Assembly: GCA_028874195.1 (NCBI GenBank)
Contig: JAPPLM010000047.1
Span: 31,810 to 94,878, forward strand
DNA length: 63,069 nt
Source: Chloroflexota bacterium
GTDB lineage: Bacteria > Chloroflexota > UBA11872 > VXOZ01
Direction of reading: 5' to 3'
Below the pieces are notes generated by a model. That model did no database searches. It was not told the DNA's origin and was given only the letters and a program-made list of their open reading frames with translations. The translations under genes and the position numbers were made by a program. This document shows, piece by piece, positions 5,080 to 63,069 of this stretch. Numbering within the stretch: position 1 is the first letter of the stretch; the number at the start of each line of letters is the position of its first letter.

Positions 5080-5491
5080 CTGCGAGATTCATCCTGACCG
5101 AAACCTGAAATTTGCTGCCTGCATAGTAGCACATAGCATGGACGACCCTAGACGGTGGAGCGCCCGGAGCCGTGCAAGGAAAATGCCGGGAACACTAAAC
5201 CCCGTCGACCAATTGCAGGAACCCGTCAAAAGATGTACCGTACTAATATCCGGTATTCGTTGTGCTGGAACCCTCTGGGGCCCCTCCTGCCCACATGCGA
5301 GGTCAGTGGTCGCTGTATGCAATGAGGATCAAGGGGATTGAAGAGTCCTCACTAGATGGACTTTATGTAAACTATTTCAGGAAGCTGGACTGCGTTGTGC
5401 ACTTGCTGTAGCAAAGATGCCCCTCTTGCTCAATTGGGCAGCATGTATAGAGACCCAAGGACCTAGCGTGGCAAGCAGAAGAAACGTTCTA
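5080..5491. other. Intergenic region between divergent genes (412 bases)
   Basis: The stretch separates the minus-strand sigma-propeller gene from the plus-strand MFS gene and must contain both promoters. I see no ORF with homology and no convincing -35/-10 pair. In-frame codons upstream of 5492 stay open back to 5417, but they read as non-protein-like and lack a good ribosome site. Confidence 0.4.
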
Positions 5492-6787
5492 ATGTCTCAC
5501 CAGAGCATCCGTGTCGCCGGCCGGATGTTTGAGTCATTGCGCGTGCCCGCCTTCCGCGATTTGTGGATCGGCATGCTCGCTTCGTACATCGGCATGTACA
5601 TGGGCATGGTATCCCGCGGCTATCTTGCTTATGAGATTACGGGCTCTGCGACCGTGCTTGGTATCGTCACCGTTGCGTCGGGAATCCCAATGCTGCTCCT
5701 GTCGCCGGTGGGTGGCGTTTTGGCGGATATGATGAATCGCCGCCTCATCCTCATTCACAGCCAGATCTTCATGGTGGTCTCATCCTTCTTCATCGCCGCC
5801 CTTATCCATTTGGACTTGATCGCAATCTGGCACCTTGCCTTCTTCGGCCTGCTGCAAGGGATACTCTTCACCATAAACATGCCGGCGCGTTCTTCCGCGC
5901 TCCCACATCTGGTAGGGAGGCCGTTGCTTGCCAGTGCAATCGGCCTCACGAACTCCGGTCGCAATTTGATGTCAGTTATTGCCCCCGCTATCGCAGGGGC
6001 CGTCATTGCCATTCCGTGGTTGGGAACCGCCGGGGCCTTTGACATCTCTGCATTCACATATGTGTGTGCGACCTTTCTGATGCTGCGCTTGCCCAAGAGC
6101 TTGGCGGAAAGTCGTGAACACGCTCAAGTAGCGTTTGGCCAACAGATGATAGACGGGTTCAATTACATCTTGACGCGGCGTTCGCTTCTCGTGTTGCTCT
6201 TGCTGGGGCTCATTCCCATCCTATTTGGTATGCCTTTGCAGTCCTTCTTGCCGGTCTTTCAGGCGGATGTGCTTCACGTTGGCGCGGTGGAACTCGGTCT
6301 CCTCTATTCGGCAATTGGTATTGGCGGCACGCTCGGATCGCTGATAATAGCGCCGCTTGCTGAGAGCAAGCACAGCCACATTATGCAACTCGGTACCGGC
6401 GTTTTCTTCGGTTTCACGCTCATCGCGTTTGCCTACAGTACATCCTTCACTCTCAGCCTGATTTTCATTGGGTTGGTCGGTTTTGCGGGAAATGCATGTA
6501 CAGGCTTGAACAGCGCATTGCTCATGCTGCGCACGGAAGAGGCGTACTACGGACGGGTAATGAGCATTTACATGATGAATTGGTCGCTTATGACACTCTT
6601 CACGCTACCCTTAGGTATGCTTGTCGACAATTGGGGCGCACCTCTAATCACTAGCGCGGCTGCGATGGGCATAGTAGTCTTCATGGGCGCTGCGTTTGTC
6701 TTCTTCCGTGACATCCGTGAGGGTCAGCACCACAGAGAAGAATTAAGTGTGGAAACCGGAACTGCGACCGCGGAAGAAGGCGTGTAA
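5492..6787 (+). CDS. MFS transporter (EntS/MFS_3-like exporter)
   Basis: About 431 residues with twelve predicted membrane spans, beginning shortly after FRDLWIGMLASYIGM. The motif-A loop GGVLADMMNRR follows the second or third helix. The family exports siderophores, drugs or metabolites. The start is placed at ATG 5492 (MSHQSIRVAG) because the first helix begins about 25 residues later. An in-frame ATG at 5417 would add an atypical 25-residue tail. The C-terminal tail is charged (REGQHHREEL). It stands 51 bases before the NIF3 gene on the same strand, so co-transcription is possible without obvious functional linkage. The substrate is unknown. Confidence 0.85.
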   Translation: MSHQSIRVAGRMFESLRVPAFRDLWIGMLASYIGMYMGMVSRGYLAYEITGSATVLGIVTVASGIPMLLLSPVGGVLADMMNRRLILIHSQIFMVVSSFFIAALIHLDLIAIWHLAFFGLLQGILFTINMPARSSALPHLVGRPLLASAIGLTNSGRNLMSVIAPAIAGAVIAIPWLGTAGAFDISAFTYVCATFLMLRLPKSLAESREHAQVAFGQQMIDGFNYILTRRSLLVLLLLGLIPILFGMPLQSFLPVFQADVLHVGAVELGLLYSAIGIGGTLGSLIIAPLAESKHSHIMQLGTGVFFGFTLIAFAYSTSFTLSLIFIGLVGFAGNACTGLNSALLMLRTEEAYYGRVMSIYMMNWSLMTLFTLPLGMLVDNWGAPLITSAAAMGIVVFMGAAFVFFRDIREGQHHREELSVETGTATAEEGV

Positions 6788-6838
6788 GCGGAGACATTGA
6801 GAATACGGTCACACCCAATGAAGGCCAAGGGCTGATTC

Positions 6839-7600
6839 ATGGTTGCATCACGGGATAAGATAGTTGATTTCCTGGACGAATATTTGGACGTACAGGGAAT
6901 TCGCGATTACGGCCCCATGGGCATGCAAGTGGTCGGCAAAGAGGAGGTCAGACGCGTGGCCGTGGCGGTCAGCGCTTCCCACGCCTGCTTTTCACTGGCG
7001 GCCGGACTTGAAGCTGACATGCTTATCGTCCACCACGGTCTCTTTTGGGATAACGATAGCCGTGTGGTAGGCAAGGCCATGCGCGGCCGGCTGGAAACCC
7101 TATTCCGCCAGGATATGACCCTCTTGGCGTACCACCTCTGTCTCGATAAACACCCGGAGATCGGCAATAACGTGCTCGCCCTCCGGGCCCTGGGCGCTAC
7201 TCCCGTCGCACTCGAGACGCCGCTCGTTGAGGTAGGGTACGTGGGCGAGTTCCCAAACCCCGTGTCATGGGAAGAGCTTACGGAACGCGCGAAGAACACC
7301 TTTGGCGGTGAGCCATATCTCTTTCCGTCGGGACCCGTCGAAACCACGCAGCTAGGACTTGTGACCGGCGGCGCGGGCAACAGTGTACACGTCATCGAGG
7401 CAGCCGAGCGAGGCTGCGATACCTATCTCACCGGAGACCTCAGCGAACCTACACCGGCCTTGGCCACAGAGCTCGGCATGAATCTGATAGGCGCCGGTCA
7501 CTATAATACGGAAAAGCTCGGCGTACAGGCCATCGGCCGCCTTTTGGAAGAGAGATTCGGCGTGAGTTCGGTCTTCATCGACGTGCCGAATCCGCTGTAG
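6839..7600 (+). CDS. NIF3-like dinuclear metal-centre protein (YbgI/DUF34)
   Basis: A 253-residue protein of the NIF3/DUF34 family, which forms hexameric rings with a two-metal site in each subunit. The metal-binding motifs are present: LIVHHGLFWD with His65-His66, the YHLCLDKHPEIGNNV segment near residue 100, and GHYNTEKLGVQAI near 225. Length and order match the short bacterial form without the PII-like insert. A GTP-cyclohydrolase or metal-chaperone role has been proposed for the family, but function remains unsettled. It is followed by a hairpin at 7629-7648 and a convergent gene. Confidence 0.9.
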   Translation: MVASRDKIVDFLDEYLDVQGIRDYGPMGMQVVGKEEVRRVAVAVSASHACFSLAAGLEADMLIVHHGLFWDNDSRVVGKAMRGRLETLFRQDMTLLAYHLCLDKHPEIGNNVLALRALGATPVALETPLVEVGYVGEFPNPVSWEELTERAKNTFGGEPYLFPSGPVETTQLGLVTGGAGNSVHVIEAAERGCDTYLTGDLSEPTPALATELGMNLIGAGHYNTEKLGVQAIGRLLEERFGVSSVFIDVPNPL

Positions 7601-7628
7601 GGAACCGAACGTCAACTGTAAGACCTGT

Positions 7629-7648
7629 CTGACTCCTGGCTGAGTCAG
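7629..7648. terminator. Hairpin between convergent genes, possible terminator
   Basis: A perfect 7-bp stem (CTGACTC, loop CTGGCT, GAGTCAG) lies 28 bases after the NIF3 stop and between two convergent genes. There is no T-run, so it is at best a weak or bidirectional terminator. Confidence 0.35.
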
Positions 7649-7726
7649 ATTGCGAGACTGTGCCCGCCTTAGACGCACCATATTCCGCAGCGGACGTGCC
7701 CCAGCTTGTTTGCATGAGGCATGCGC

Positions 7727-8827
7727 CTAGTCGCAATCGGGACTGGAGTCCAGGATCTTTCGCGCAGCGGACAACACAGCCTCGAGTTCATCAGTTGTAC
7801 CCTCTTTGTCTTTGCCTACCACGAAACGCACGACATCGCTCTGCACGCCAAGAGGCCCGAAGCGTTGCGGTGACGTGGGTCCGAACAAGGCAATGACCGG
7901 TGTGCTCACCGCTGCGGCAAGATGCATTGGCGCCGAATCATTGCCGATGAACAAGTGGCAGCGCTGAATCAAGGCCCCAAGTTGCGCAAACGTCAATTTG
8001 CCCGTTACGTCCACCATAGACGCGGTTGCCCCATTTTGGATCACCTCAGCTATAGGCGCATCATCAGGCCCCCCGACGAGTAGGATGCCGGCCCCCAGCG
8101 TGCTCCCAAGACTCTCGGTGAGAGCCTGGAAATTGCTGCTGGACCAGCGTTTGCTTAAGAGCTCATCACCGGGGTTCCTGCCGCCGCCAGGGTGAATCGC
8201 GATCAGGGGCCTCCTTTCTGCCAGGCCCTCTTCGGTGAGCAGATTACTTGCTTCAGAGACATCAGAGGATTGAGGCCGAAAGTGCAAATGCGGCTTCGTT
8301 ACGTCAAAGCCTGCTTTCCGCAGGACATCCAGGTATAGCTCTGCCTCATGACGATCGTCCCCGCAAGGCACGCCAACGTGCAACGCGATACCACGCCCGG
8401 CACTATCGAGACCTGCCCGCCAGGGAATGCCTGCGAGCCGAGGCAGTAAAGACATGAGCGAAGAGCGGTCCAGCACAAAGCAGTGGGTAAAGCTGCGCTC
8501 TCGCACGCGGGAGACGCAATTGCGATACATGCTAAAGCCGTAGAGCCCAGGAAATCCGACGGTGCCGGAATCAATGACTTCGTCGCAGTGTGGATTGCCG
8601 ACCAAGGCCTCCTTGGCCCAGGTCGTCACCAATACGGTGACATGGGCGCGCGGCAGATTTGCGCGCAGAGCGGCAAGGAAGGCAGTGCTCATGAGCACGT
8701 CGCCCAAACTGGCGGGCTTGATCACCAGAATATTTGGACGCTCGGATGCAAGGGGTGGCGCTGTCGGCTCAGTGTATAGAAGCGGATGCAGGATTCGGGA
8801 CAACTGCTCAATCAAGAACGACTTCAT
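7727..8827 (-). CDS. Glycosyltransferase family 9 (heptosyltransferase-like)
   Basis: A 366-residue GT-B enzyme of family 9 (ADP-heptose:LPS heptosyltransferase type). Visible motifs: NILVIKPASLGDVLMSTAF near the N-terminus (the conserved GD-V-T segment), LIAIHPGGG mid-protein, LVGGPDD, and the donor-site FIGNDSAPMHLAA followed by ALFGPTSPQRFGP. It would add a sugar to a surface glycan or lipid-linked oligosaccharide at the inner face of the membrane. In a lineage without LPS the acceptor could be another glycolipid. No other glycan genes are adjacent. Confidence 0.88.
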   Translation of the reverse strand: MKSFLIEQLSRILHPLLYTEPTAPPLASERPNILVIKPASLGDVLMSTAFLAALRANLPRAHVTVLVTTWAKEALVGNPHCDEVIDSGTVGFPGLYGFSMYRNCVSRVRERSFTHCFVLDRSSLMSLLPRLAGIPWRAGLDSAGRGIALHVGVPCGDDRHEAELYLDVLRKAGFDVTKPHLHFRPQSSDVSEASNLLTEEGLAERRPLIAIHPGGGRNPGDELLSKRWSSSNFQALTESLGSTLGAGILLVGGPDDAPIAEVIQNGATASMVDVTGKLTFAQLGALIQRCHLFIGNDSAPMHLAAAVSTPVIALFGPTSPQRFGPLGVQSDVVRFVVGKDKEGTTDELEAVLSAARKILDSSPDCD

Positions 8828-28044: not shown

Positions 28045-29319
28045 ATGCGTCCCGTCATGACCAGACCTCGCCCCGATGACATTCGCGCTTTCGTTGAAAC
28101 TGAAGTCTCTGCGGTTGCGGACTGGCTCTTTGCGCTTTGTGCCCTCGAGAGCAAACTCGGTTTCGAAGCTGCAACGATCTCAGAGGTAATGAAGGCCTTT
28201 CAGGGCCTTGACCTCACGGTTGAGAAAGTGCCCTACCCGCACGACATTGATCAGAATCCGCATCACATTCCGGTGCCGGATCTGGACCAGTACCCAGACC
28301 ACGTACGCGCCAATGTGCTCGCCACACGGCCCGGCAGCGGCGGCGGACGCAGCCTCATCCTGCAGACCCATCTTGACGTCGTACCGGAAAGCGAAGGCCA
28401 GCGTTACGAGCGCGTACAAGACCCTGAACGTGGGGAAATCCTCTACGCGCGCGGCAGCAACGATGCGAAAGGACAAGCAGCGGCGCTCCTGCTCGTTATG
28501 CGTGCCTTGGCGCACTTCGACATTTCACTGCAGGGAGACCTGGAACTCCAGCTTGTTACCGAAGAAGAGGTGGGCGGCAACGGCGCCCTCGCCTTTATTC
28601 ATGCCGGACATCGTGCCGATGGCGTATTGGTCATGGAGCCTTCACTCGGACAGATTCATCCCGCCAATCGCGGCGCGCTCTGGTTCCAAATCGGCATAGA
28701 AGGCGTCAGCATGCACATGGGGCGCATGCATGAAGGAGTCAGCGCAATCGACAAGGGTATCGCCCTTATTGCCAGCTTCAAAGAATACGAGAAAGAACTC
28801 GTCGCGATGAGTAAGGGGTATCGCGGCTTCGAGCGCTACGATCATCCCGTGCAACTGAATGTTGGCATTTTTCAGGGCGGCCACTGGCCCAGCGCCGTAG
28901 CGGGCGAGGCCGTCATAGAAGGCGGCGTCGGTTTCTTACCGAACAAAGCCATGGATGACGTACGCGCCGACTTGGAGCGCATCATCGCGACTCATCCCGA
29001 CGAGTGGATTCGTAACCACACTACCATCCAATTTAACAAGCTGCGCAACGATTCTTTTGAGATACCCTACGATCACCCGCTACCCACCACGCTCCATGCT
29101 GCCGTGCACGATGCGGGATTGGAGAGCGAGGTATTCGGCTGGAACGTCTCCTGCGATGCTCGGCTCTATGCCCGCGTTGGCGGGCTGCCAGTCGTTGTGT
29201 TCGGGCCTGGCGACCTCGCCACCGCACATGGACCGCATGAACACTTCGCGGTAGCGGACATGGTCGACGCTGCCTGCGCACTCACGCAGTTCGTGCAGGA
29301 CTGGTGCGACGTGCGCTAG
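28045..29319 (+). CDS. M20-family metallopeptidase (ArgE/DapE/carboxypeptidase G2 type)
   Basis: A 424-residue zinc hydrolase. The two-metal ligands are all recognisable in order: LQTHLDVVPE (His, with the catalytic-site Asp), ARGSNDAKGQ (bridging Asp), TEEEVGGNG (catalytic and ligand Glu), VMEPSLG and ATAHGPHEHFAV (His). A dimerisation domain lies between about 195 and 310. Members deacylate N-acetyl amino acids or trim peptides. The start at 28045 or the second ATG at 28057 are both possible. Its stop codon lies inside the first unit of a 19-bp tandem repeat. Confidence 0.92.
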   Translation: MRPVMTRPRPDDIRAFVETEVSAVADWLFALCALESKLGFEAATISEVMKAFQGLDLTVEKVPYPHDIDQNPHHIPVPDLDQYPDHVRANVLATRPGSGGGRSLILQTHLDVVPESEGQRYERVQDPERGEILYARGSNDAKGQAAALLLVMRALAHFDISLQGDLELQLVTEEEVGGNGALAFIHAGHRADGVLVMEPSLGQIHPANRGALWFQIGIEGVSMHMGRMHEGVSAIDKGIALIASFKEYEKELVAMSKGYRGFERYDHPVQLNVGIFQGGHWPSAVAGEAVIEGGVGFLPNKAMDDVRADLERIIATHPDEWIRNHTTIQFNKLRNDSFEIPYDHPLPTTLHAAVHDAGLESEVFGWNVSCDARLYARVGGLPVVVFGPGDLATAHGPHEHFAVADMVDAACALTQFVQDWCDVR

Positions 29320-29371
29320 CGAGCGAAACCAGCGCTAGGTAGCGAAGCCTACGCTAGGTAGCGAAGCCAGC
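29315..29371. repeat. Three tandem copies of a 19-bp unit (GCTAGGTAGCGAAGCCAGC)
   Basis: Units at 29315-29333, 29334-29352 and 29353-29371, the last two differing at two positions. The stop codon of the M20 peptidase gene (29317-29319) is inside unit 1. The AGCGAAGCC motif repeats in phase. Confidence 0.8.
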
Positions 29372-29403
29372 GCAAGAACTCGGAGGTTTCCCGGAATAGG
29401 CTA

Positions 29404-49117: not shown

Positions 49118-49183
49118 TGCGCAGTCACGTTCGCCTGTAACGTGATCGATCCTCACGGTACGCGCGATTTACAGAGGAATGCT

Positions 49184-50584
49184 ATGCAACTCAAGTTCCT
49201 CCACGCTGCTGATATCCATCTTGGCTACCAGCAATACGGCCTTGAGCAGCGCTACGACGACTTCACCGAGGCGTTCCAGTGGGTTGTAGACACCGCGTTG
49301 GACGAGCGGGTTGACTTTCTCTTGCTGGCGGGCGATCTCTTCGAGAAGCGCACCCTCGACCCGCGAACGCTCCTTATCGCCGTTGAACAATTCGAACGCC
49401 TGAAAACCGCGCAAATCCCGGTTGTCGCCATCGAAGGCAACCACGAGCGCACGTACGGCGACAATCTCTCCTGGATGGAGTACCTCAATCAGAGCGGCCT
49501 TCTCCACTTACTGGATTGCGCGCGCCACGACCAAGGTTGGCAGCCCCAGCCGTGGAACCGAGAGGAGCGCGCCGGTGGTTTCGTGGACATTGCCGGCGCA
49601 CGCATCTATGGTCTCAAGTACCAAGGCGCGCAGACCGGCGCGGCGCTCAGCGAGATTGGGGCCGCAATCGCCGCCGCTCCCCAGCCGGCCGCGGAGTTTT
49701 CTATCTTTCTTGCGCACACGTCTGTGGAGGGGTACTACGACCAAGGCCATCCTTTTGCGCGCCAGCAAGACCTCGCTTCTCTCCGGCAGTGCGTGGACTA
49801 CCTCGCCCTCGGGCACTTACACGCACCGTATGTAGGTACGCTTGGTGGGAGAGATTGGCTCTTCAATCCCGGTTGCCCGGAAACCTGGAGCAGCGAAGAG
49901 TGGCAGTACCAAAACAAAGGCGCTCTCTTTGTAGAAGTAGACACCAATCAGGCCCCAAGCTTCAAGGCCACGCCACGCAACTATGCCGGTCGCCGTCCCT
50001 TCATCCGTATTCGACAAGAGCTGGATGCCTGTCCGACGCCGGGCGTGCTCCTGCGCCTTCTCGAAGAGAAGATACGGCGCGAACCGCTGCCAAACGCTGG
50101 CGTAGAGTCGGCGGATTTAGAAGACGCATCTCGCCCTGCGACAGGCAGGCGTTCCCAATCGCCAAAGTCCCCCGTAGTCGAGATCGTGCTCACGGGCGTC
50201 GCACGGTTTTCGCGCACGGAAATCGACGCGGCAGCCATCGAACAACTGGCAAAGAAGTACATCGATCCGCTGCTCGTGCGCGTGCGGTCAACCTTGCAGG
50301 AAGCCCCTGCGAGCGTGGTGGAAGATGGGAGCGCTCTGCCGCGAGAAGTCTTGGAACGAACAGTCTTTGAAAATCTCATCCGGGCCGATGATCGCTTTGC
50401 CTCATCGGCGGCCGAGGTAGCCCAAGTCACCGTACTTCTCAAGCAGATGGTCCTCGACGGGGTCACAGCCAGTGATATTGCGGGCGAAATGCACAGCCGC
50501 CTGCGCACGCTGCGACACGTCGGACAAGACGATCTCTTTGGTACCGGACCGGGAGCCACGGAACCGCAAAGATACTCAGAATAG
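49184..50584 (+). CDS. sbcD: SbcD/Mre11-type DNA repair nuclease subunit
   Basis: A 466-residue calcineurin-fold nuclease. The phosphoesterase blocks are present: FLHAADIHLGYQQYG, LLAGDLFEKR, EGNHERTYG, FLAHTSVEGYY and LALGHLHAPY. AGAGGA precedes the ATG at 49184; the longer ORF to 49142 is not supported. It is followed by SbcC six bases after the stop. In the Mre11-Rad50 complex it degrades DNA ends and opens hairpins. It leads the DNA-end-processing cluster of this window. Confidence 0.93.
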   Translation: MQLKFLHAADIHLGYQQYGLEQRYDDFTEAFQWVVDTALDERVDFLLLAGDLFEKRTLDPRTLLIAVEQFERLKTAQIPVVAIEGNHERTYGDNLSWMEYLNQSGLLHLLDCARHDQGWQPQPWNREERAGGFVDIAGARIYGLKYQGAQTGAALSEIGAAIAAAPQPAAEFSIFLAHTSVEGYYDQGHPFARQQDLASLRQCVDYLALGHLHAPYVGTLGGRDWLFNPGCPETWSSEEWQYQNKGALFVEVDTNQAPSFKATPRNYAGRRPFIRIRQELDACPTPGVLLRLLEEKIRREPLPNAGVESADLEDASRPATGRRSQSPKSPVVEIVLTGVARFSRTEIDAAAIEQLAKKYIDPLLVRVRSTLQEAPASVVEDGSALPREVLERTVFENLIRADDRFASSAAEVAQVTVLLKQMVLDGVTASDIAGEMHSRLRTLRHVGQDDLFGTGPGATEPQRYSE

Positions 50585-50590
50585 CTGCTG

Positions 50591-53503
50591 ATGCGCATCA
50601 CCGAAGTTTCCTTGAGGAACATCAAGAGCTACCAAGCCGCCACCATCAGTTTTCCGTTGGGCACCATTGCTATCTCCGGGCCGAATGGGGCGGGCAAGAG
50701 CACTATCCTGGAGGCGATTGGCTTTGCGCTCTTCGACTTCCTACCGTATCGCAACCAGCGTGAGTTCATGCGCCACAATGCGTTAGAAGCGGACGTGCGC
50801 GTGACGTTTCTCTCAAGACTGGATGAATGCCCGTATCAGGCGGTGCGCACGCTCAAGCGCGCTACCGGCACCGATTCAGTCACGTCCTCTTACTACGTTT
50901 ACAGCCTCGATGCCGGGGGGCGCGTGGCTCAGCAGAAGCAAGAGGTGCAAGACTTTCTGCGTTCGCACATCGGCCTGGACGACTACGCTGACTTGGGGCG
51001 CGTATTCGACAACGTCCTCGGTGTGCCGCAGGGACGCTTGACCGCCGATTTCTTGCTCACTCCCGCCCAGCGCAAGGGCACTTTTGATCCGCTATTGCGC
51101 GTCGATGCGTACCGCCGCGTCTATGAAAGATTGCGGGACGTCTTGGATGCACTCCAAGGAAACGTCTCGGATCAGGAGCGGCGCGTCTCCGCATTGGAAC
51201 CTGAAGCGGCGCGTTTGCCGGACGTGGTTGCGGCGCTCGCTGAGTTCGAAAAGCAACAGGCGGTTTCTGCGAAGGAAGTCTGCACCCTAGCCACGGCGCA
51301 AGCGCGTTTGCAGGAAGACCTGCACCGCCTGGAAGTCCAGCGTCGGACTCTTGAACAACAACGCGATCTCGTCAAACGCTTCACACAACAGCAACAGCAC
51401 TTGCAGAATCGCCTCGAAGCTGAGCAAGCCCACGTCACCGCGGCAATGGAAGCCGTTACGCTCACACAGAACGCCGCTCCGGGATACGCCGCCTACCGCA
51501 AGGCGCAAGAGGTGCTTGCAACACTTGAGGAGGAACGCAAGTCTGCTGAAGCGCTCCAGGGGACCAGGCACACTGTGGAGAGGAAGCTTGTAGCCTTACA
51601 GACCCGCCAGGCCGCCCTTGCGAAAGCGGCGGAGGAAGCGAGCGCGGCGGCGGCGCAAAGAGACTCCCTTATGCCGCGTGTAGTTGAGCAAGAACGCCTG
51701 GAGGCGTCAGTACAAGGGTTTAGTCTTGATCTTGAATATGCACGCCAGCATGGAGACCAGGTAATGCAAGTGCTGGGTAGAATTGCGGCCAGTGAAGACA
51801 GTGATGGATTGACACCCGCCAGAATCAACCTGCCGTCAGAGCCCGCCGCATCTGCCGCGGCTGCGCGCGATACCCTTGAAGACCAACAAGAGCGTCTACA
51901 GGAAGTAAGTCTTTGGCTGGAGCAGCGCAGAGACCTCCGTAATCGCTACAACCGCTTGCAGACTGAGCACATTGAAACCGCAAAGACGGTCGCGCATTGT
52001 GAGTCATTTACGGAAGCCGCGTCCCGCCTTAGCGGTCTTGGGCAAGAGTTAAAGCGGTTGCAAGACAGAGTAAGCGCCTTTGAAGCACAGCGGCGCTTCA
52101 ATGAGGAATCACATTCAATGGCCGCGGATGGTCTGTGTCCTTTCTTCAAAGACGCTTGTCCGAAAGTCGAAGATGGCCATGACCTTACCCCGGTGTTAGT
52201 CGGCCTGATTCGCGACTATTCGGCTCAGGCTGAACAGGCATTGGCTGAAAGACAGCAGCTAGAAAAAGCAATAATCGAGGCAACATCGGCACAGAAGCAA
52301 GTCGACCGTCTCCATGACTTGAGGCCCCGCTTGGAAAACCTGGAGGAAGAACTGCTCGCAGTTGAGCAGCAGGTTCAGGATCTGACACAGAGCATAGGCA
52401 AGCGGCTGCAGGGTACATGGTCGGCGCAGGACATTGCCAACGTGATCGAGCAACTGGATGCAGAGGGCAAGGCCCTTAACAATGAACTCGCAAACCTAGG
52501 AAATCCGCGCCTGACTGCAGAACGGCTGTACGTGACCGCCAGCGAGTATGAATCACGTTCAGATGCGCTTGCTGAAGTGAAGCGCGAACATCACCAAATC
52601 GAACTGGAGTTGAAGTCCATCACCGAGGACCTGGCGCCGTACGCCGATCTGCAGAAACGAGTCGCGCAACAGCGCCATACGGCAGAACTGCATCGAGATG
52701 ACTTCGAAGTGTATTTGCAACACGAAAAAACAGCCGCCGATCTACCCCAAAGGGAAGAGGCTCTAGCAGCACTAACAGAAGACGCGGAAGAGAGTATGCG
52801 AGCTGTCGCAGATTCCCAACGACTCCTCGCCGAGTGCGAGGAGGCTTGGAACCCGACCACACTCTCCGAAGTACAAGCTCATCTGAATAAGACACAGAGC
52901 CAGTTAGGCGCGGCGAATGAGCGGACCCGCCATCTCAATGACCAGATAGAGCGGTCAAAGCAAGAAATCGCCGCTTTGGAGGAATCGGCGCGAGCATTGG
53001 ATGAAGCCAAACAGGCCCTGGTAGAGGCGCAAGAAGTGCACTCGGTCACCGGCTTCTTGCGCAACGTCATCCGCGACGCCGGCCCGCACATCACGCGGCA
53101 CCTGATTCAGCAGGTTTCCGCCGAAGCGAATACGCTCTTCAGCGAGATCATGGGCGACGCCTCGGCTCAACTCTCTCTGACTGAGGACTACGACATCATC
53201 TTGGAGCAGCATGGGTACCGGCGGGCCTTCATGCAGTTGTCGGGCGGGGAGCAGATGAGCGCGGCGGTCGCCGTCCGCCTGGGTCTGCTGCGGCAACTCT
53301 CCGATATCAACCTTGCCTTCTTCGACGAGCCGACCCAGAATATGGATGCAGAGCGTCGCCACAACCTGGCCGAACAGCTAGAGCGGGTGAAAGGTTTCGA
53401 TCAACTCTTCGTCATCAGCCACGACGATACCTTCGAACCGCTGGTCTCCACGGTGTTGCGGGTGCGCAAGGAGAATGGCGTGAGTACTGTGTCAGTGGAG
53501 TAG
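50591..53503 (+). CDS. sbcC: SbcC/Rad50-type ATPase with long coiled coil
   Basis: A 970-residue SMC-like ATPase. Walker A is GPNGAGKSTILEAIGF (about 30-45). The coiled coil spans roughly 175-780. The ABC signature is LSGGEQMSAAVAVRLGLL, followed by Walker B LAFFDEPTQNMD and the C-terminal FVISHDDTFEPLV. At the apex the usual CxxC zinc hook is replaced by LCPFFKDACP with Cys516 and Cys523, seven residues apart. It would hold SbcD at DNA ends. The next gene, NurA, follows after 64 bases. Confidence 0.93.
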   Translation: MRITEVSLRNIKSYQAATISFPLGTIAISGPNGAGKSTILEAIGFALFDFLPYRNQREFMRHNALEADVRVTFLSRLDECPYQAVRTLKRATGTDSVTSSYYVYSLDAGGRVAQQKQEVQDFLRSHIGLDDYADLGRVFDNVLGVPQGRLTADFLLTPAQRKGTFDPLLRVDAYRRVYERLRDVLDALQGNVSDQERRVSALEPEAARLPDVVAALAEFEKQQAVSAKEVCTLATAQARLQEDLHRLEVQRRTLEQQRDLVKRFTQQQQHLQNRLEAEQAHVTAAMEAVTLTQNAAPGYAAYRKAQEVLATLEEERKSAEALQGTRHTVERKLVALQTRQAALAKAAEEASAAAAQRDSLMPRVVEQERLEASVQGFSLDLEYARQHGDQVMQVLGRIAASEDSDGLTPARINLPSEPAASAAAARDTLEDQQERLQEVSLWLEQRRDLRNRYNRLQTEHIETAKTVAHCESFTEAASRLSGLGQELKRLQDRVSAFEAQRRFNEESHSMAADGLCPFFKDACPKVEDGHDLTPVLVGLIRDYSAQAEQALAERQQLEKAIIEATSAQKQVDRLHDLRPRLENLEEELLAVEQQVQDLTQSIGKRLQGTWSAQDIANVIEQLDAEGKALNNELANLGNPRLTAERLYVTASEYESRSDALAEVKREHHQIELELKSITEDLAPYADLQKRVAQQRHTAELHRDDFEVYLQHEKTAADLPQREEALAALTEDAEESMRAVADSQRLLAECEEAWNPTTLSEVQAHLNKTQSQLGAANERTRHLNDQIERSKQEIAALEESARALDEAKQALVEAQEVHSVTGFLRNVIRDAGPHITRHLIQQVSAEANTLFSEIMGDASAQLSLTEDYDIILEQHGYRRAFMQLSGGEQMSAAVAVRLGLLRQLSDINLAFFDEPTQNMDAERRHNLAEQLERVKGFDQLFVISHDDTFEPLVSTVLRVRKENGVSTVSVE

Positions 53504-53567
53504 CTCAGTCACTCGCCAAGCAAGTAAGCACCGCAAGGTTACCTAATCTGCACAGATTCTGGCCTTA

Positions 53568-54830
53568 GTGCCAAATGAATCGGCGCAACCGCGCGGTTGT
53601 AGTCTCCGTCCGGTGAATGTGGAGATTGCCGTGTTCTATCGCGACAAAGTGATCAATGCGCTAGACGAAAAGCGCGCCGCGCTGAACCAACTCGATCACG
53701 AGCAGCGTGCCCGCCTCCAGGAGTTGATGGGGGCGAGCGATGCGCTTACTGGAATGACTGCCGCCGCGCTCCGTGAGCGGCTCGCGCCGGAAAATGCGCC
53801 GGGTGCGCTGCCCACCGACGAATTCGACAGAGTACCAGGCATCCGCATCCGGTTTCCGGAAGCTTGGGACAATCTCACAGCTATGCGCCACTGGGCGTCC
53901 GGCACGCTTGCCGACGTCACCGTTTGCGCGGTTGACGGCAGCCAGTTGCCTGCAAACAAGGACTTTCCCTTGCCGGTAGCCGCTGTGCAAATTGCGTGGT
54001 TCACCAATCCGCATAGGGACGACGGCGCATACGAGAAGGATGCGCACGTCGAGGTGCTAACACCGCAAGAGCTTATCAAAGACGACGTCGACGCTAGTCT
54101 CTTGGTTGCTCTTCATCGCTATGAGCTTGAAGTCGCGCGGATCAACACATTCATGCGGGAGCAGAGCGCCCGCGGCGAGCGAGCCGTGGCGCTCTTCGAC
54201 GGCTCACTCACCGTCACTTTTGCCGGCGCATATCCTGATGAAGTGCGAAACCGCTATCGCGCCGCGGCAGTGAGCATGCTGCGCACTTCGGAAGAATGCC
54301 GGGTACCCCTTGTGGCTTACATTGATCGTTCGCGCGCCAATGACTTCACGACGATGCTTTGCCATGTGGGCGGGATCAGTCGTTCAAATGCGTCACTGAT
54401 CAGCGACGCCGCGGTCTTGGATAAACCGATTGATGATGAAGGATTTTGGCGTTCGACCGCATTCTTGTGCCAAAGGCCGGACGTGGCAAATGAAGAGAAT
54501 TACCGAGACAAGCAAAGCTGCAAGAGCTACAGCAAAGAAATATGCTTCACCTACCTGAAGATCAACCACGGACGTCCAGTTCGTCTTGAATTCCCAAAGT
54601 GGGTGCTTTGCGCCGGCATGCTCGACCGCGTGATAGACTGGGTGCGAGCGGAGGCCATTGTGGGCGGCGGCTATCCATACGCCATTCAAGCGGCCGACGC
54701 TGCCGCCGTGATCACTTTCGCGGACCGGCAACGCTTTCTGCGCGCCCTTGAGGAGTTCGGCAGAAAACACGGTATCCGCACCATGCAGGCATCGTCCAAA
54801 CAGGCCAGCAAAGAGCGGCGGCGGACATAA
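53568..54830 (+). CDS. nurA: NurA 5'-3' nuclease
   Basis: A 420-residue NurA-domain protein. The first metal Asp is in AVDGSQLPANK, the second in VALFDGSLTVTF, and YIDRSRANDF follows with another Asp; a basic C-terminus ends the protein. NurA works with the HerA translocase to resect DNA ends after Mre11-Rad50 in archaea. The GTG start at 53568 is the first in frame; an internal start around 53610 is possible. It lies between sbcC and the HAS-barrel-like gene, supporting a repair complex. Confidence 0.85.
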   Translation: MPNESAQPRGCSLRPVNVEIAVFYRDKVINALDEKRAALNQLDHEQRARLQELMGASDALTGMTAAALRERLAPENAPGALPTDEFDRVPGIRIRFPEAWDNLTAMRHWASGTLADVTVCAVDGSQLPANKDFPLPVAAVQIAWFTNPHRDDGAYEKDAHVEVLTPQELIKDDVDASLLVALHRYELEVARINTFMREQSARGERAVALFDGSLTVTFAGAYPDEVRNRYRAAAVSMLRTSEECRVPLVAYIDRSRANDFTTMLCHVGGISRSNASLISDAAVLDKPIDDEGFWRSTAFLCQRPDVANEENYRDKQSCKSYSKEICFTYLKINHGRPVRLEFPKWVLCAGMLDRVIDWVRAEAIVGGGYPYAIQAADAAAVITFADRQRFLRALEEFGRKHGIRTMQASSKQASKERRRT

Positions 54831-54842
54831 GAGGCAGCAACC

Positions 54843-55439
54843 ATGCCAGTGATCGGGCGTATCGTCAAGTCCAACTCCCACACGGACTATGTCTGCCAGG
54901 TTTTTGCCCCTCGGGAGACAGAGCACGACCCGGAGCCGCAAGACTACGCCTTTGGGCGCTTTGTCAAGGCACCGATTGACCCAGCAGATGACCGCACAGC
55001 CGTTGGCATCGTCTACGATACGATTCTCCTCAACCCGGAGTACGGCAGCCTCGGTCCCCGCCTCAACCCGCCCTCGGAGCAAGCGACGCTTGCCCCGGAT
55101 TACTTGGTGGAAAAGGCGACGGCGGTCGGCATCATCATCGTGGGGCTGCAAGAGGGCGACACGGTCGAGCACGGCGTTATTTCACTCTCTCTTCCTGTCG
55201 ACGCCGAGGTTTCCAGCTTGGATGACGACGATACCCGGCGCTTCCATCTGGTGGACGAGAGACTCGCGCTCGGCTATCTGCCCAGTCTCATCTCGCACAC
55301 GAGCCCTCTTGTGACTGAACTTGGGCTCACCGTAATTCGCCAGCTTCTCTCACTCTTCCCAGAGCCCGGCGACCAGCGTCTGCTACGCACGCTCGCCGCC
55401 CACTTCTCTTGGCAAGCCAGAGTCACACCCTTGGGCTAA
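54843..55439 (+). CDS. HAS-barrel-like protein between nurA and herA
   Basis: A 198-residue protein. The N-terminal half (MPVIGRIVKSNSHTDYVC, FGRFVKAP, AVGIVYDTILLNPEY) has the small beta-strand pattern of the HAS-barrel found at the N-terminus of HerA and related ATPases. The C-terminal half is helical (LGLTVIRQLLSLFPEPGDQ). I do not recognise it as a named family; the HAS-barrel assignment is an inference from pattern and location. It follows nurA by 12 bases. Confidence 0.65.
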   Translation: MPVIGRIVKSNSHTDYVCQVFAPRETEHDPEPQDYAFGRFVKAPIDPADDRTAVGIVYDTILLNPEYGSLGPRLNPPSEQATLAPDYLVEKATAVGIIIVGLQEGDTVEHGVISLSLPVDAEVSSLDDDDTRRFHLVDERLALGYLPSLISHTSPLVTELGLTVIRQLLSLFPEPGDQRLLRTLAAHFSWQARVTPLG

Positions 55440-55510
55440 TTTGATGCTCTAATATACTTAGGAAGAACATCCAATCTTCCTTTCCTCAATGAGAATGAGG
55501 TAAATAACGT

Positions 55511-56284
55511 ATGCGCGAAAACCCCGTTAAGCACCTCCTCAAGGCAGGCAAACCCGCCATTGGCACCTGGCTCACGCTTGGCGATCCTCTGGCTACCGAG
55601 ACCTTGGCGCACTTGGACTTCGACTGGCTCAACGTTGACATGGAGCATGGGTCCATAGACGTGCGTGAGACCCGTACGCTTTTTCAGGTCATCAACACCA
55701 CCGACGTAGTGCCCACGGCGCGCGTGCCCTGGAACGATCACGTGTGGATCAAGCGCGTGCTCGATGCCGGCGCGTACGGCGTGGTGGTGCCAATGGTGCG
55801 CACGCGGGAGGAAGCAGAGCGCGCCGTGGCCGCCTGCCGCTATCCATCCGCCGGCATCCGCAGCATCGGCAGCGGGCGCAACCACTATGCCTTTCGCGGT
55901 TCCCAGGCCGATTATCTCGCGCGCGCCAACGGTGAACTTCTCGTAATCATCCAGATCGAGCACGCCGACGCCATCCGGCGGCTTGACGACATTCTCAGCG
56001 TGCCGGGCATCGACGCCGCCTTCATCGGCCCCAATGACCTCTGCGCTTCTCTGGGCATTCCGCCAAGTACCGATAGCGAGCATCCGGACTTTGAAGCCGC
56101 TATCAGCCAGGTGGTTACCGCATCCCAAAGGCACGGTGTTGTCCCGGGCATCCACACAAGTTCCGGAAATGCGCTAAACAAGCGGCTCGAGCAAGGGTTT
56201 CGTTACTTGGGTCTCGCCAACGACCAGCGCCTGCTTATCAAGGGTGCAACTGATGAATTGGACGTTATCACGCGCGAGCAATAG
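55511..56284 (+). CDS. HpcH/HpaI aldolase family protein
   Basis: A 257-residue class II aldolase of the HpcH/HpaI type (2,4-dihydroxyhept-2-ene-1,7-dioate or 2-keto-3-deoxy-L-rhamnonate-like). Motifs: DWLNVDMEHGSID with the active-site His, VVVPMVRTREEA, the metal-binding Glu in IIQIEHADAI, and GPNDLCASLG. Metal-dependent cleavage of a 2-keto-acid sugar to pyruvate and an aldehyde is expected. It lies inside the DNA-repair cluster without a functional link, with a hairpin directly after it. Confidence 0.9.
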   Translation: MRENPVKHLLKAGKPAIGTWLTLGDPLATETLAHLDFDWLNVDMEHGSIDVRETRTLFQVINTTDVVPTARVPWNDHVWIKRVLDAGAYGVVVPMVRTREEAERAVAACRYPSAGIRSIGSGRNHYAFRGSQADYLARANGELLVIIQIEHADAIRRLDDILSVPGIDAAFIGPNDLCASLGIPPSTDSEHPDFEAAISQVVTASQRHGVVPGIHTSSGNALNKRLEQGFRYLGLANDQRLLIKGATDELDVITREQ

Positions 56285-56308
56285 GCAGTTCTCCAATTGA
56301 AGAACTGC
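56285..56308 (+). terminator. Hairpin GCAGTTCT / AGAACTGC after the aldolase
   Basis: A perfect 8-bp stem with an 8-base loop, directly after the aldolase stop and before herA. No strong T-run follows. It could end the aldolase transcript, giving herA its own promoter. Confidence 0.35.
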
Positions 56309-56363
56309 GAACGCAGCCTTCTCTGCAGACCTAAACCATTGATTTAGTCATAAGTGGATTTCG

Positions 56364-58277
56364 ATGATAATTGGCATTGCCAAGGGCCCTGGGGACACAC
56401 CGAACGAATACACCTTTGTCACGCCCGATACGGCGCGGCGTGTAAAGACAAGCGAATTCGTCTATTACGAGGCGGAGGTTGACGGCATCCAGCGCCAGAT
56501 ATTAGGGCGTGTCATCCGGCGGATACCGTTGCGCCTCTATCCGGATTCATTTCTCGCGCACCCGGAGGTCGACCCGGCGCAGATGGCGGCATTGGTTGGC
56601 TACGCCGACACCAGCGCACCTTCAGGAGATAGTAATGGGCCAGGCATCGGCTCAGCGGAACTCTTTGAGATTCACGTCAGTATCATGGGCTATCACGATG
56701 CGCAGTTGAGCGCCTTCGTCAATCCACGCATTCCGCCTCGCATTGGCTGGAAGATATACCTTGCGCCCGACGCGGCCCTGGCGGAAGTGCTCAACCGTGT
56801 CGCCTTTGATTGGAACATGGGTGAAGCCAATCCGGGCGGGGCGTTCGTCGGTTCGCTGCTCTCGCGCCCGGCCTTTAGTCCGCAAGCGGACCAACCCGAC
56901 GGTGTGCCTGTAGTATTGGACGTCCGTTCCATTACGGCGACTCATATGGCAATCATCGCCGGCACCGGCGCGGGCAAGAGCTACCTGGCGTCCGTTCTGA
57001 TCGAAGAGATGATGAAGCCCATCAACCGCGCCAGCATTCTGGTGATTGACCCACACGGCGAGTACGACACCCTCGAAGAGATACGAAATGCCCGCGAGTT
57101 TAGTGCCAACGGCAGCTATAAGGCGGAGGTGAAGACCGTCCCCCAGGATCAGGTAAAGATTCGTGTCTCCGATTTGACGTTCTACGACATGCGCTTTCTG
57201 CTCGGCGCGCAATTCGGTCTTTCCGGTCCTATGGAGTATGTTCTGCGATTGGCGCTAGATCGAGTGGAAGGCGAGCGCAAGGACAAGACCGCCTGGACGA
57301 CGAACGATCTCTACGCTGCCTTGGCCTACATGCAGGATGGGGAGGACGAGACAGAATCCGGCCAGGTCCGTCATTCCCGCGCAAGCTCGCCCCCGCAGGA
57401 GGCGCGGAATCCATCTTCAGGCGACGGCGACCTTGACTGGCTCGACGACGTTGGTAAAGACGCTGGCAAAGACGCCGGCAGCAAGGAACCTCAGGGCACA
57501 CGCGGCAAGCCGGATGTGCAAATGCGCGGCAGCGCGCGGGCGCTCGACTGGCGCTTGAGAAGCCTCTTCGCAGAGTCACCGAATTTCGACAACATTGAGA
57601 CCATCAACCTCCACGATGTCTTCCGCCCTGGCCTGTGCTCCGTGCTCCAACTCAACGAAATCGACCGCCGCCAGCAGCAAGTGATCGTGGCCGTGCTCCT
57701 GCGCATGGTCTGGAAAGCGCGCATGAACGCCGCAAAAGGCATTGGCTCCCCCCAAGACCGCCTTGACTACCCGGTTTTCATCCTGTTGGAAGAGGCCCAT
57801 CACTTCGCGCCCGCCAATGAAGACGTGGTGACGACGAATATCCTCAAGACTATCTTGGCGGAGGGCCGCAAGTTTGGCGTGGGCGTGGGCCTCATCAGTC
57901 AGCGGCCAGGCAAACTCGATTCCGATGTGCTTTCCCAATGCATGACGCAGTTCCTCCTGCGCATCGTCAACGAATACGACCAGAGCAGTGTGGCGGCTGC
58001 GGTGGAGAGTGCGAGCCATGATCTCCTGGCGGAACTGCCGGCGCTCTCGAAGGGCCAGGCAATCGTGGCCGGCGCCGCCGTCAATACGCCGCTCTCAATT
58101 CGTGTCCGACAACGCATCACACGCCACGGCGGTATCGAACCTGACGCTCCTGGGGAGTGGGCAAAGTATTTTTCGGATGAAGCGCGGCAACGCCGCGAGG
58201 TTGACGACTCAGGACTGCCGGAAGGTCCGCCGCGAGGCCGCAGCAACCTCTTCTACAAGAGCCGCGACCGCCGGTAG
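56364..58277 (+). CDS. herA: HerA-type DNA translocase ATPase with an inserted palindromic repeat
   Basis: A 637-residue HerA/FtsK-type ATPase. An N-terminal HAS-barrel is followed by Walker A GTGAGKS (residues 200-206), VIDPHGEYD and, in the C-terminal half, Walker B FILLEEAHHFAP and the FGVGVGLISQRP region. It would drive end resection together with NurA. Residues about 335-395 form an insert rich in Ser, Pro, Asp and Gly; its first part comes from a palindromic DNA repeat (57368-57415), and GKDAGKDAG follows. The insert splits the ATPase core between NDLYAALAYM and ALDWRLRSLF. The ATG at 56364 has no strong ribosome site. Confidence 0.9.
   Translation: MIIGIAKGPGDTPNEYTFVTPDTARRVKTSEFVYYEAEVDGIQRQILGRVIRRIPLRLYPDSFLAHPEVDPAQMAALVGYADTSAPSGDSNGPGIGSAELFEIHVSIMGYHDAQLSAFVNPRIPPRIGWKIYLAPDAALAEVLNRVAFDWNMGEANPGGAFVGSLLSRPAFSPQADQPDGVPVVLDVRSITATHMAIIAGTGAGKSYLASVLIEEMMKPINRASILVIDPHGEYDTLEEIRNAREFSANGSYKAEVKTVPQDQVKIRVSDLTFYDMRFLLGAQFGLSGPMEYVLRLALDRVEGERKDKTAWTTNDLYAALAYMQDGEDETESGQVRHSRASSPPQEARNPSSGDGDLDWLDDVGKDAGKDAGSKEPQGTRGKPDVQMRGSARALDWRLRSLFAESPNFDNIETINLHDVFRPGLCSVLQLNEIDRRQQQVIVAVLLRMVWKARMNAAKGIGSPQDRLDYPVFILLEEAHHFAPANEDVVTTNILKTILAEGRKFGVGVGLISQRPGKLDSDVLSQCMTQFLLRIVNEYDQSSVAAAVESASHDLLAELPALSKGQAIVAGAAVNTPLSIRVRQRITRHGGIEPDAPGEWAKYFSDEARQRREVDDSGLPEGPPRGRSNLFYKSRDRR
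57368..57415. repeat. Palindromic repeat inside herA, in frame
   Basis: CCGTCATTCCCGCGCAAGCT begins it and GGCGCGGAATCCATC ends it, with inverted ATTCC(C)GCGC / GCGCGGAAT arms. It belongs to the widespread CGTCATTCCCGCG-type extragenic repeat and is related to the TGTCATTCCGAGCG copies near 20533, 20595-20636 and 58347. Here it is translated without disrupting the frame, encoding VRHSRASSPPQEARNPS-like residues. Confidence 0.7.
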
Positions 58278-60803: not shown

Positions 60804-60985
60804 AGGCCAAACTCCACAGTTGCTGAGTTTCTTATCCCGAGTCCACGATTATGCACAGATCTGCTGCTCAAATTACTGCATTGCACACACGTGTGATGAC
60901 TCTCTGTGTGGGAATTATTGGTAGTATTGAACAGCAAGAAAGACAAATCTAATGCGTTTCGTTACTTTGCCTATCAAGGATGCAA
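60804..60985. promoter_or_regulatory. Divergent promoter region of aldo/keto reductase and SIR2 gene
   Basis: 182 bases, AT-richer than the rest. It contains a perfect 10-bp palindrome, CACACGTGTG at 60886-60895, a possible operator. No strong -35/-10 pair was identified. Confidence 0.3.
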
Positions 60986-63069
60986 ATGAGAATTGCTGAC
61001 ATTGAATTCCCCCTTGACTTGTGGGATGACCTGAGACAAGGGAAACTCGTGCTGTTTGCTGGGGCCGGCGTTTCTATGGGAAGGCCAGCTGGACTACCGG
61101 ATTTCAAAGACCTGGCGCGAGAGATTGCAAGAGGCACTGGTGAGCGTCGAAAGCCCAAGGAGCCAGAGGACTACTTCTTGGGGAGGTTAGAGGATCAAAG
61201 AGGTACAAAGGTTCATGAACGTGCCGCTCGTGTTCTCTCCAGAAGTGGCGTGAAACCAACTGATTTGCACATAGACATTCTGCGCCTCTTTAAGAGAAAT
61301 TACAAGGTTCGTTTGGTCACCACGAACTTTGATGAGTTGTTCGAGCGAGCCATAGATACAGAGGATGAGCTCGATGTAAGGCCCGAAGTATTCAGAGCTC
61401 CTGCGTTGCCCCTCGGTCGCGACTTCAGCGGCATCGTCCACTTGCATGGTACGGTGAGTCAGCCCCAAAGCATGGTGCTTACAGACACGGACTTCGGCCG
61501 GGCATACTTGACTGAAGGATGGGCACGACAATTCCTTGTAGACCTTTTTCGCACATTTCCGGTGCTTTTTGTGGGATACAGCCACAACGAAACCATCATG
61601 AGTTATCTTGCACGCTCTCTACCGAGAAGCGATGAGACAAAGCGATATGCCTTAACCGACTCCAAGAGCGCCGAACAGATGCGTTGGCAAACGCTTGGGA
61701 TTGAGACGATTCCCTATCCTAAATCCCGTAACCACCGGGCCATATGTAAGGGCGTCAAAGGCTTAGCATGCTATACCCGCCGCAGCATACTGGAATGGAA
61801 ATGGGAGATTGAAGCAATTGCAAAGAATCTCCCACCCTCTGACAAAGAATCTGCGGACATCATTGAAGAGTCTTTGAGAACCCTAGCCAAGGCTCGTTTC
61901 TTCGCGAATGCTGCAACAGATCCAGCGTGGATTGATTGGCTTGACGAACGCAAACATCTAGACGCAGCTTTTGGTCACGGCGATTTGAGCGATATCCAAG
62001 GAGTTCTGTCTTGGTGGCTTGCCCACCATTTTGTCTTTTGTGCTGCCGACAAGCTGTTTCTCTTGATTGGTAAGCACGATGGTCGCATACACCCGAATCT
62101 CTGGTGGAAAATTGGTCACGAGATCACAAGTAGTGGGACCGAAATTAATAGGGAATTGCTATCAAAATGGGTATCCGTTCTGGCCTCTGACATTCCGACA
62201 ATTGATAATACAGACCAATTCATCCTGTTAGATCTAGGCATGCAATGTTCTCAATATAGGCTGTTTGATCGCGTCCTACAGTTTTTCGACGCAATGACGG
62301 CAAGCCGTCTTATCGCGGAGCCGGGCTTCCCATTGGATGACCAAGAACCTCCAATTGATGCGGAAATAAAAATGGTCGGAGAACCCCATGTTGTATGGGG
62401 TTTGTGGAGAGATTGCCTAAAGCCTAACCTAAGTGAGGTGGCTAAACCTCTCCTTGAGCTAGTAGTTAGACGTTTGGAACAAAGGCACCGTTCGCTTAAC
62501 CCGTGGGGGCAAAGCGAGAACTGGGAGCGGCCAGCAATCGGAAGTCATGAGCAGAATAGGTCCACCGGCCCATCCACCGTCCTAGTTGATGCCGCGCGCG
62601 ATATCCTCGAATGGCTCGCAGAGACTCAGCCGGAAGCAGTAGCTAGCTGGTGCAAACAGCTTGCAGTGTCAGATGTACCATTGTTGCAGCGCATTGCTAT
62701 ACACGTTGTAACCGCCCAAAAGGAACTGAATTCAGATGAGAAAATCGATTGGCTTCTGACTAACCTTGACATACACGACTCAAGAATTCACTACGAGGTC
62801 TTTGCTCTAGCGGGGCAAGCCTATCCCAGTTTAGACATGAGTGTCAAGAAGGTTCTAGTTGCAAGAATTAGAGAGTACCGGTGGCAGAGCAAAGAACGCT
62901 CGGAGTTGACACCTAAACAGCTTGAAGCCTGGAATGAACTCAACTGGTTTCAATGGCTCCATGAAAAGGACCCGAGTTGCCCTTTAGCTAAGCAAGCCCT
63001 AGATCAAGCGTCAAACCTAAACAGCTTGAAGCCTGGAATGAACTCAACTGGTTTCAATGGCTCCATGAA
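60986..63069 (+). CDS. SIR2-domain protein with large helical C-terminus, truncated by the window end
   Basis: Open for 694 codons without stop to the window edge, AAGGA ending five bases before the ATG at 60986. The SIR2-like NAD-binding motifs are GAGVSMG (residues 26-32) with GLPDF (36-40), TTNFDELFE (112-120), and HLHGT (152-156) with the catalytic-type His; VGYSHNE at 196-202 ends the core. The rest, from about 250 on, is helix-rich (WWKIGHEIT, WLAETQPEAVASWCKQL) and resembles the C-terminal part of SIR2 proteins of DUF4020 type. Such genes belong to antiphage NAD-depletion systems. GC content is visibly lower than in neighbours, suggesting transfer. The last 100 bases may be assembly-damaged. 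Confidence 0.82.
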   Translation, partial: MRIADIEFPLDLWDDLRQGKLVLFAGAGVSMGRPAGLPDFKDLAREIARGTGERRKPKEPEDYFLGRLEDQRGTKVHERAARVLSRSGVKPTDLHIDILRLFKRNYKVRLVTTNFDELFERAIDTEDELDVRPEVFRAPALPLGRDFSGIVHLHGTVSQPQSMVLTDTDFGRAYLTEGWARQFLVDLFRTFPVLFVGYSHNETIMSYLARSLPRSDETKRYALTDSKSAEQMRWQTLGIETIPYPKSRNHRAICKGVKGLACYTRRSILEWKWEIEAIAKNLPPSDKESADIIEESLRTLAKARFFANAATDPAWIDWLDERKHLDAAFGHGDLSDIQGVLSWWLAHHFVFCAADKLFLLIGKHDGRIHPNLWWKIGHEITSSGTEINRELLSKWVSVLASDIPTIDNTDQFILLDLGMQCSQYRLFDRVLQFFDAMTASRLIAEPGFPLDDQEPPIDAEIKMVGEPHVVWGLWRDCLKPNLSEVAKPLLELVVRRLEQRHRSLNPWGQSENWERPAIGSHEQNRSTGPSTVLVDAARDILEWLAETQPEAVASWCKQLAVSDVPLLQRIAIHVVTAQKELNSDEKIDWLLTNLDIHDSRIHYEVFALAGQAYPSLDMSVKKVLVARIREYRWQSKERSELTPKQLEAWNELNWFQWLHEKDPSCPLAKQALDQASNLNSLKPGMNSTGFNGSM
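62911..63069. repeat. Exact 55-bp direct repeat at 62911-62965 and 63015-63069
   Basis: Both copies begin ACCTAAACAGCTTGAAGCCT and end GGCTCCATGAA, identical over 55 bases, with different bases before them. The second ends exactly at the window end. The offset of 104 is not a multiple of three, so the second copy reads in another frame of the SIR2 gene. Confidence 0.95.

Follow-up and report, generated by a model that had tools for sequence, protein, structure and literature searches.

The described systems closest to the gene that we analyse here are DSR2 and Dsr1. The C-terminal region of DSR2 binds a phage tail tube protein, the SIR2 NADase is then released in the tetramer and NAD+ is depleted (PMC10973363, PMC10981675, PMC11087589). 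The catalytic residues of DSR2 are N133 and H171 (PMC10981675). Dsr1 (defence-associated sirtuin 1) is among the least understood of the SIR2 systems; the literature that we found details DSR2 structures and treats Dsr1 only in passing. According to one review, Dsr1 held phage back and the cells did not die (PMC10952713), therefore abortive infection should not be assumed.

The gene lies at the end of a stretch of 63,069 nucleotides from a Chloroflexota bacterium, which we call the window. Judged by its sequence it is a member of a sister clade of Dsr1, and not Dsr1 proper. We consider it very likely, largely by analogy with DSR2, that the gene by itself forms an antiphage system belonging to the Dsr1 superfamily, in which the tail would sense a phage component and the SIR2 domain would deplete NAD+. 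The features of the locus are:

60986..63069, + strand: the Dsr1-like gene, 5′ part, in frame up to about 63016 (residues 1-677)
C20:94979-96499 (L005:2980-4500): remainder of the Dsr1-like gene, past a gap of 100 Ns
60986..61780, + strand: SIR2 NADase domain (putative, by homology), about residues 1-265 (about 1-267 in the model)
61061..61081, + strand: GAGVSMG NAD-binding motif, residues 26-32
61325..61327, + strand: N114 of TTNFD, counterpart of the catalytic N133 of DSR2
61445..61447, + strand: H154 of HLHG, counterpart of the catalytic H171 of DSR2
61787..63016, + strand: helical repeats of the putative C-terminal sensor, first half; the region continues past the window and ends in DUF4020
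62911..63069, + strand: repeat block, in which the 55 bp at 62911-62965 are exactly repeated at 63015-63069 (a 104-bp unit with 5-bp ACCTA at the junction), next to the scaffold gap
60804..60985, + strand: intergenic region at the acquisition site; an aldo/keto reductase gene starts at 60803 on the - strand, and sucC lies downstream of the SIR2 gene
56364..58277: HerA, 2.7 kb upstream of the SIR2 gene, in an MRE11-RAD50-NurA-HerA cluster

The initial annotation described the gene as cut off at the window end. It does meet a scaffold gap of 100 Ns there (C20:94879-94978, L005:2880-2979), the rest of it can be recovered on the far side, and the final ~55 bases of the window (63015-63069), which read in another frame as LNSLKPGMNSTGFNGSM, lie outside the true C-terminus. 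To the right of the gap the gene frame restarts with KDPSCPLAKQALDQASN, a stretch of 17 residues that is also present to the left, and then stays open as far as the stop codon at L005:4500. Since both copies of this stretch occupy identical columns when the joined pieces are aligned with 64 full-length relatives, we take ~1,166 aa to be the complete length of the protein. The open frame offers an ATG at 60980 or 60986, of which the second is the likely start because relatives begin with MRI or MNI.

The 104-bp repeat reflects either a tandem duplication that some cells carry and that shifts the frame, or a loop in the assembly graph, and a possible frameshift inside the gene in this assembly counts against the antiphage reading. 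The gene might then be a decaying or phase-varied copy, inactivated by the duplication in some or all cells of the population. The exact 55-bp block recurs 104 bp apart with ACCTA microhomology, the gap restarts at the same sequence, and, 104 not being a multiple of three, the frame would shift if the duplication were real. We nevertheless regard a decayed copy as quite unlikely: assemblers often use a k-mer of 55 bp and a graph loop could give an equal picture, the frame on either side of the site aligns to relatives with no columns lost, and the orthologue in another genome of the same genus (G002) is open throughout.

The residues of a SIR2 domain (GAGxS, TTNxD and HxHG) are all present, in the order first reported: GAGVSMG at 26-32, GLPDF at 36-40, TTNFDELFE at 112-120 and HLHG at 152-155. 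The key residues are invariant or nearly so among the 64 full-length relatives, which argues that the motifs are not due to chance. In particular the NAD-binding core, proposed earlier as the point to check, holds up, with G26, G28, S30, N114 and H154 identical in 64 of 64. Pfam SIR2_2 matches residues 112-244 (E 3e-23), and a Pfam domain search of the protein found no nucleic-acid-binding or NTPase domain. When residues 1-658 of the window protein itself are modelled (mean pLDDT 87), the predicted SIR2 domain aligns with ThsA (7uxt_A, Z 20.2) and DSR2 (8wyc_C, Z 19.7) over ~247 residues at 3.0-3.1 Å, compared with Z 11-12.5 for the SIR2 structures of SIR2-HerA systems and Z 10.6 for Sirt5. 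The SIR2 fold is common to sirtuins, as the Sirt5 match illustrates, and TCA-cycle genes adjoin the SIR2 gene, as might be expected if this were a metabolic or regulatory sirtuin (a protein deacylase) and not a defence protein. That reading is extremely improbable, as ThsA and DSR2 are far closer (Z ~20), deacylase models score well under their cut-offs, and the gene is missing from three genomes of the same genus in which the metabolic neighbours are the same.

The earlier suggestion of a SIR2-NADase defence candidate is borne out by homology. The PADLOC Dsr1 model (PDLC04167) matches both pieces of the gene (E 4.6e-47 and 2.9e-13), and a profile-profile comparison (hhalign) with named Dsr1 proteins extends over 1,115 columns with probability 100 and E 2.9e-97. 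The match to the Dsr1 C-terminal region is thus collinear and full-length, by PADLOC at both ends and by hhalign, and the C-terminal part, for which no family could be named with certainty at the outset, is the Dsr1 C-terminal helical repeat. The guess that it was DUF4020-like at best proved right as well, with the domain (29.1 bits, Pfam cut-off 22.7) located in the part of the gene outside the window. No mention of DUF4020 was found in the literature searched.

Two observations place the gene beside Dsr1 and not within it. The NCBIfam Dsr1 equivalog model (NF041818) has a cut-off of 1400 bits, which is not reached by the two pieces (175 and 34 bits) or by intact relatives from the same clade (231-287 bits), whereas a named Dsr1 protein scores 2088 bits. 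In a quick tree with long branches, named Dsr1 and its kin fall on the opposite side of a branch with 100 support from the window clade. This clade is present in Chloroflexota, Acidobacteriota, Latescibacterota, Poribacteria, Gemmatimonadota, Pseudomonadota, Bacillota, Actinomycetota and others, with one relative on a viral contig and one on a Rhodococcus plasmid; no relative was found in annotated phage records. When genome and viral collections were scanned with one protein as query, no matches emerged, whereas alignment-based scans gave some. Another genome of the genus (G005) encodes a further SIR2 protein in a 465 aa frame (L023:10097-11494, contig C325), with an N-terminal part that scores on Dsr1 models and a C-terminal part that is short or interrupted.

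The tail that follows the SIR2 domain comprises ~900 residues of helical repeat with DUF4020 at its end. For the half of it that lies in the window, structure models predict helices throughout except for a two-strand hairpin at 440-463. L062, a relative of full length that shares 48% identity with the window protein across residues 1-658 and was modelled with a mean pLDDT of 88, is likewise predicted to be an all-helical repeat after SIR2, apart from one two-strand hairpin. The best whole-chain Foldseek matches of this relative are DSR2 entries (E 4e-9), at an rmsd of ~35 Å, and most long alignments between the tail and DSR2 structures exceed 10 Å. Outside SIR2 the relative resembles HEAT-like proteins only in general, the Z of 13.3 for the PP2A scaffold being about the helical-repeat background. 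A search of BFVD structures gave no significant match. The structural likeness is too general for us to call the tail DSR2-like.

The genomic site gives a view of how the gene was acquired. Five genomes of the same genus were available, one of which (G005) is too fragmented to order gain and loss. In G002 an orthologue occupies the identical site between the aldo/keto reductase and sucC genes, and in G001, G003 and G004 this site is empty, with 202-247 bp between the two. No other 2-kb stretch of the window is as low in GC as the part of the gene that it holds (49.7%, with a GC3 of 50.6%). For the gene the ranges are 49.7-50.1% GC against 58.6% for the rest of the window, and 50.6-54.2% GC3 against 65-76% in the neighbours measured. 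The G002 copy is likewise low in GC at 51.0%, so the drop in GC relative to the preceding DNA that was noticed at the outset is confirmed. The tree groups the window gene with other phyla. Taken together, the empty sites, the low GC and GC3 and the phylogeny support a horizontal or patchy gain, as had been proposed from the sequence alone. The window and G002 copies are sisters in the tree (100 support) and ~60% identical, compared with 84-94% for the flanking proteins. Their fourfold-site divergence is 1.15-1.37 against 0.70-0.98 for flanking genes, a difference to be expected if the copies changed faster and equally if one was replaced at the site they share. Elsewhere in the window, positions 29313-29373 hold 3.2 copies of a 19-bp unit (GCGCTAGGTAGCGAAGCCA).

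A partner gene had been expected past the window end. What lies there, past the gap, is sucC (succinyl-CoA ligase), sucD and other TCA-cycle genes. No recurrent partner was found next to the relatives; recombinase-like and BrxC-like proteins stand beside a few of them, along with pieces of broken copies of the SIR2 gene itself. With no partner-like recurrent neighbour and with metabolic genes alongside, the locus has the form of a single-gene system. The flanks of relatives do contain PglX, BrxL, type I and II methylases, a type III restriction enzyme and phage-type integrases, and these BREX, restriction-modification and integrase genes support the view that the family acts in defence. The SIR2 gene of this genome is solitary among metabolic genes, with no defence island, which counts against a defence reading.

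HerA lies nearby and scores on PADLOC HerA models, and the initial annotation listed SIR2-HerA among the known types. It is scarcely credible that the SIR2 gene is the effector of a SIR2-HerA system. HerA adjoins NurA, RAD50 and MRE11, two unrelated genes separate it from the SIR2 gene, and it is 82-93% identical in G001-G005, three of which (G001, G003 and G004) have no SIR2 gene. Furthermore, the SIR2 protein has 1,166 aa and a Dsr1-type tail, and the SIR2 structures of SIR2-HerA systems rank far lower against our model. HerA was rejected as a partner; it belongs to a repair cluster, and genomes of the genus carry it whether they have the SIR2 gene or lack it. MRE11-RAD50-NurA-HerA is an archaeal-type end-resection set; it is found here at 49142-58277 in a Chloroflexota bacterium, with HerA kept in all five same-genus genomes.

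The most interesting outcome of our analysis is that the tail is also found on other proteins. The full-length profile, when run against 400 Chloroflexota genomes, also returned proteins that match the C-terminal region alone. A profile of the tail matches only 14 of the 400 genomes, and therefore the match is not a generic likeness between helical repeats. Ten Chloroflexota genomes match the PADLOC model PDLC04166, nine of them in the tail only; the tenth is the window's own, with one tail-only match on contig C81 and one SIR2-only match, the window gene. The set without SIR2 matches Dsr1-type tails by profile-profile comparison with E 2.8e-48 over 839 columns, and hmmsearch of the tails gives 2e-49 for a TIR protein, 2e-36 for a Vibrio protein and a weaker 5e-9 for the C81 protein. 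The arrangements are:

L146:3091-6405 (G047): TIR_2 at residues 5-123 (5.7e-11) and a tail with 715 bits on PDLC04166 positions 283-1225, without SIR2
L145: the tail together with DUF4062 (1.5e-22) and a weak match to AAA
Haloarchaeal plasmid proteins of 1,483 and 1,510 aa: a hydrophobic, apparently membrane N-terminus, P-loop-like front ends and the tail
L175:2359-6100 (Vibrio coralliilyticus plasmid NZ_CP009266): a 306-aa SIR2 gene and a 942-aa tail gene, with an overlap of 8 bases
L147, L168, L171 and L172: a ~200-aa domain of unassigned family fused to the tail
L148, L169 and L170: a counterpart ~200-aa domain as a separate gene before the tail gene
C81:23040-26580 (L167:5041-8581), same genome as the window: a 233-aa gene (5041-5742) and then a 967-aa tail gene (5678-8581), without SIR2

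The Vibrio pair is a natural split form, its SIR2 gene covering PDLC04166 positions 5-301 and its tail gene positions 311-1213. NADase activity is known from TIR domains as well; a search of 100 further genomes sampled around G047 did not find the TIR-tail fusion. The pair on C81 comes after a DNA methylase and a short toxin-antitoxin-like gene pair, and G001 (L170) is arranged similarly. The small genes before tail-only genes (L148:3838-4560, L169:7735-8418 and L167:5041-5742) have R/H-rich motifs at their ends, such as AHHE and AHCRE, that recall HEPN domains, and the two that were scanned gave no PADLOC match.

We think it likely that the Dsr1-type tail is an autonomous phage-sensor module that can be plugged into differing effectors, namely SIR2 in cis or in trans, TIR, DUF4062-NTPase, membrane-NTPase, and the ~200-aa domain in cis or in trans. 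Independent evidence that sensing would fall to the tail and the effector role to the front end comes from these natural swaps and from the split form. Such reuse was not found in the literature searched, a body from which subscription papers were mostly absent.

By analogy with DSR2, the N-terminal SIR2 domain would be an NAD+ hydrolase that is kept inactive, probably in an oligomer. The ~900-residue helical tail would bind a phage component during infection and free the SIR2 domain, which would then deplete NAD+ and so stop phage production. The antiphage reading draws on the predicted intact SIR2 fold with its catalytic residues, the full-length homology with Dsr1, the lack of a partner, the patchy presence at one site and the reuse of the tail. 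Triggers vary among other SIR2 systems (SPARSA, Avs5 and Thoeris). The trigger of a NADase defence could then be a plasmid or other mobile DNA, or the SIR2 domain could make a signalling nucleotide, instead of a response to a phage structural protein. These variants seem unlikely, as DSR2, the nearest architecture with a known trigger, senses a tail tube protein, and the window protein has no recognisable nucleic-acid-binding or NTPase domain.

These results have some practical use. A sister clade that is widespread and has intact members in many phyla, together with natural effector swaps and a natural split form, provides material to find the target of the tail and to examine whether sensing and killing can be separated. 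For annotators there is a warning: PDLC04166 gives up to 715 bits to proteins without SIR2.

Compared with known systems, the window protein shares a SIR2 effector with SIR2-HerA, from which it differs in size and tail, the HerA of the window being core DNA repair. In Thoeris, ThsA carries a SLOG domain and is partnered by ThsB. The SIR2 domains of ThsA and the window protein are alike (Z 20.2), whereas the window protein has neither SLOG nor an adjacent ThsB; ThsA models match its SIR2 alone and no TIR gene adjoins the window gene. DSR2 (Bacillus subtilis; PDB 8wyb, 8k98 and others) has in common with it the SIR2 fold, the catalytic Asn and His, an all-helical region after SIR2 and the single gene, yet the sequence match appears limited to SIR2 (NCBIfam Dsr2, E 0.0038, residues 90-174 only) and the two tails cannot be superposed over their whole length. 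The TIR, DUF4062-NTPase and membrane-NTPase proteins (L146, L145, L173 and L174) have a homologous tail (single-sequence E 1e-15 to 1e-49), but the effector or front end is replaced. Dsr1 itself (NF041818; PADLOC PDLC04167/02183/04166) is likewise one large protein with an N-terminal SIR2 domain and a long helical tail collinear over the full length, it has no obligatory partner, and it is patchy and mobile. Unlike named Dsr1, the window protein is ~100 residues shorter, its N-terminal part is only about 22-25% identical and it falls in a separate clade, whose intact members score 230-290 bits against the 1400-bit equivalog cut-off; a DUF4020 match occurs in 4 of 6 clade-side members tested and is lacking in the one named Dsr1 protein tested. 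What appears to be new relative to known Dsr1 is that, by sequence comparison, the tail also occurs without SIR2, on other front ends, and seems to behave as a swappable sensor module.
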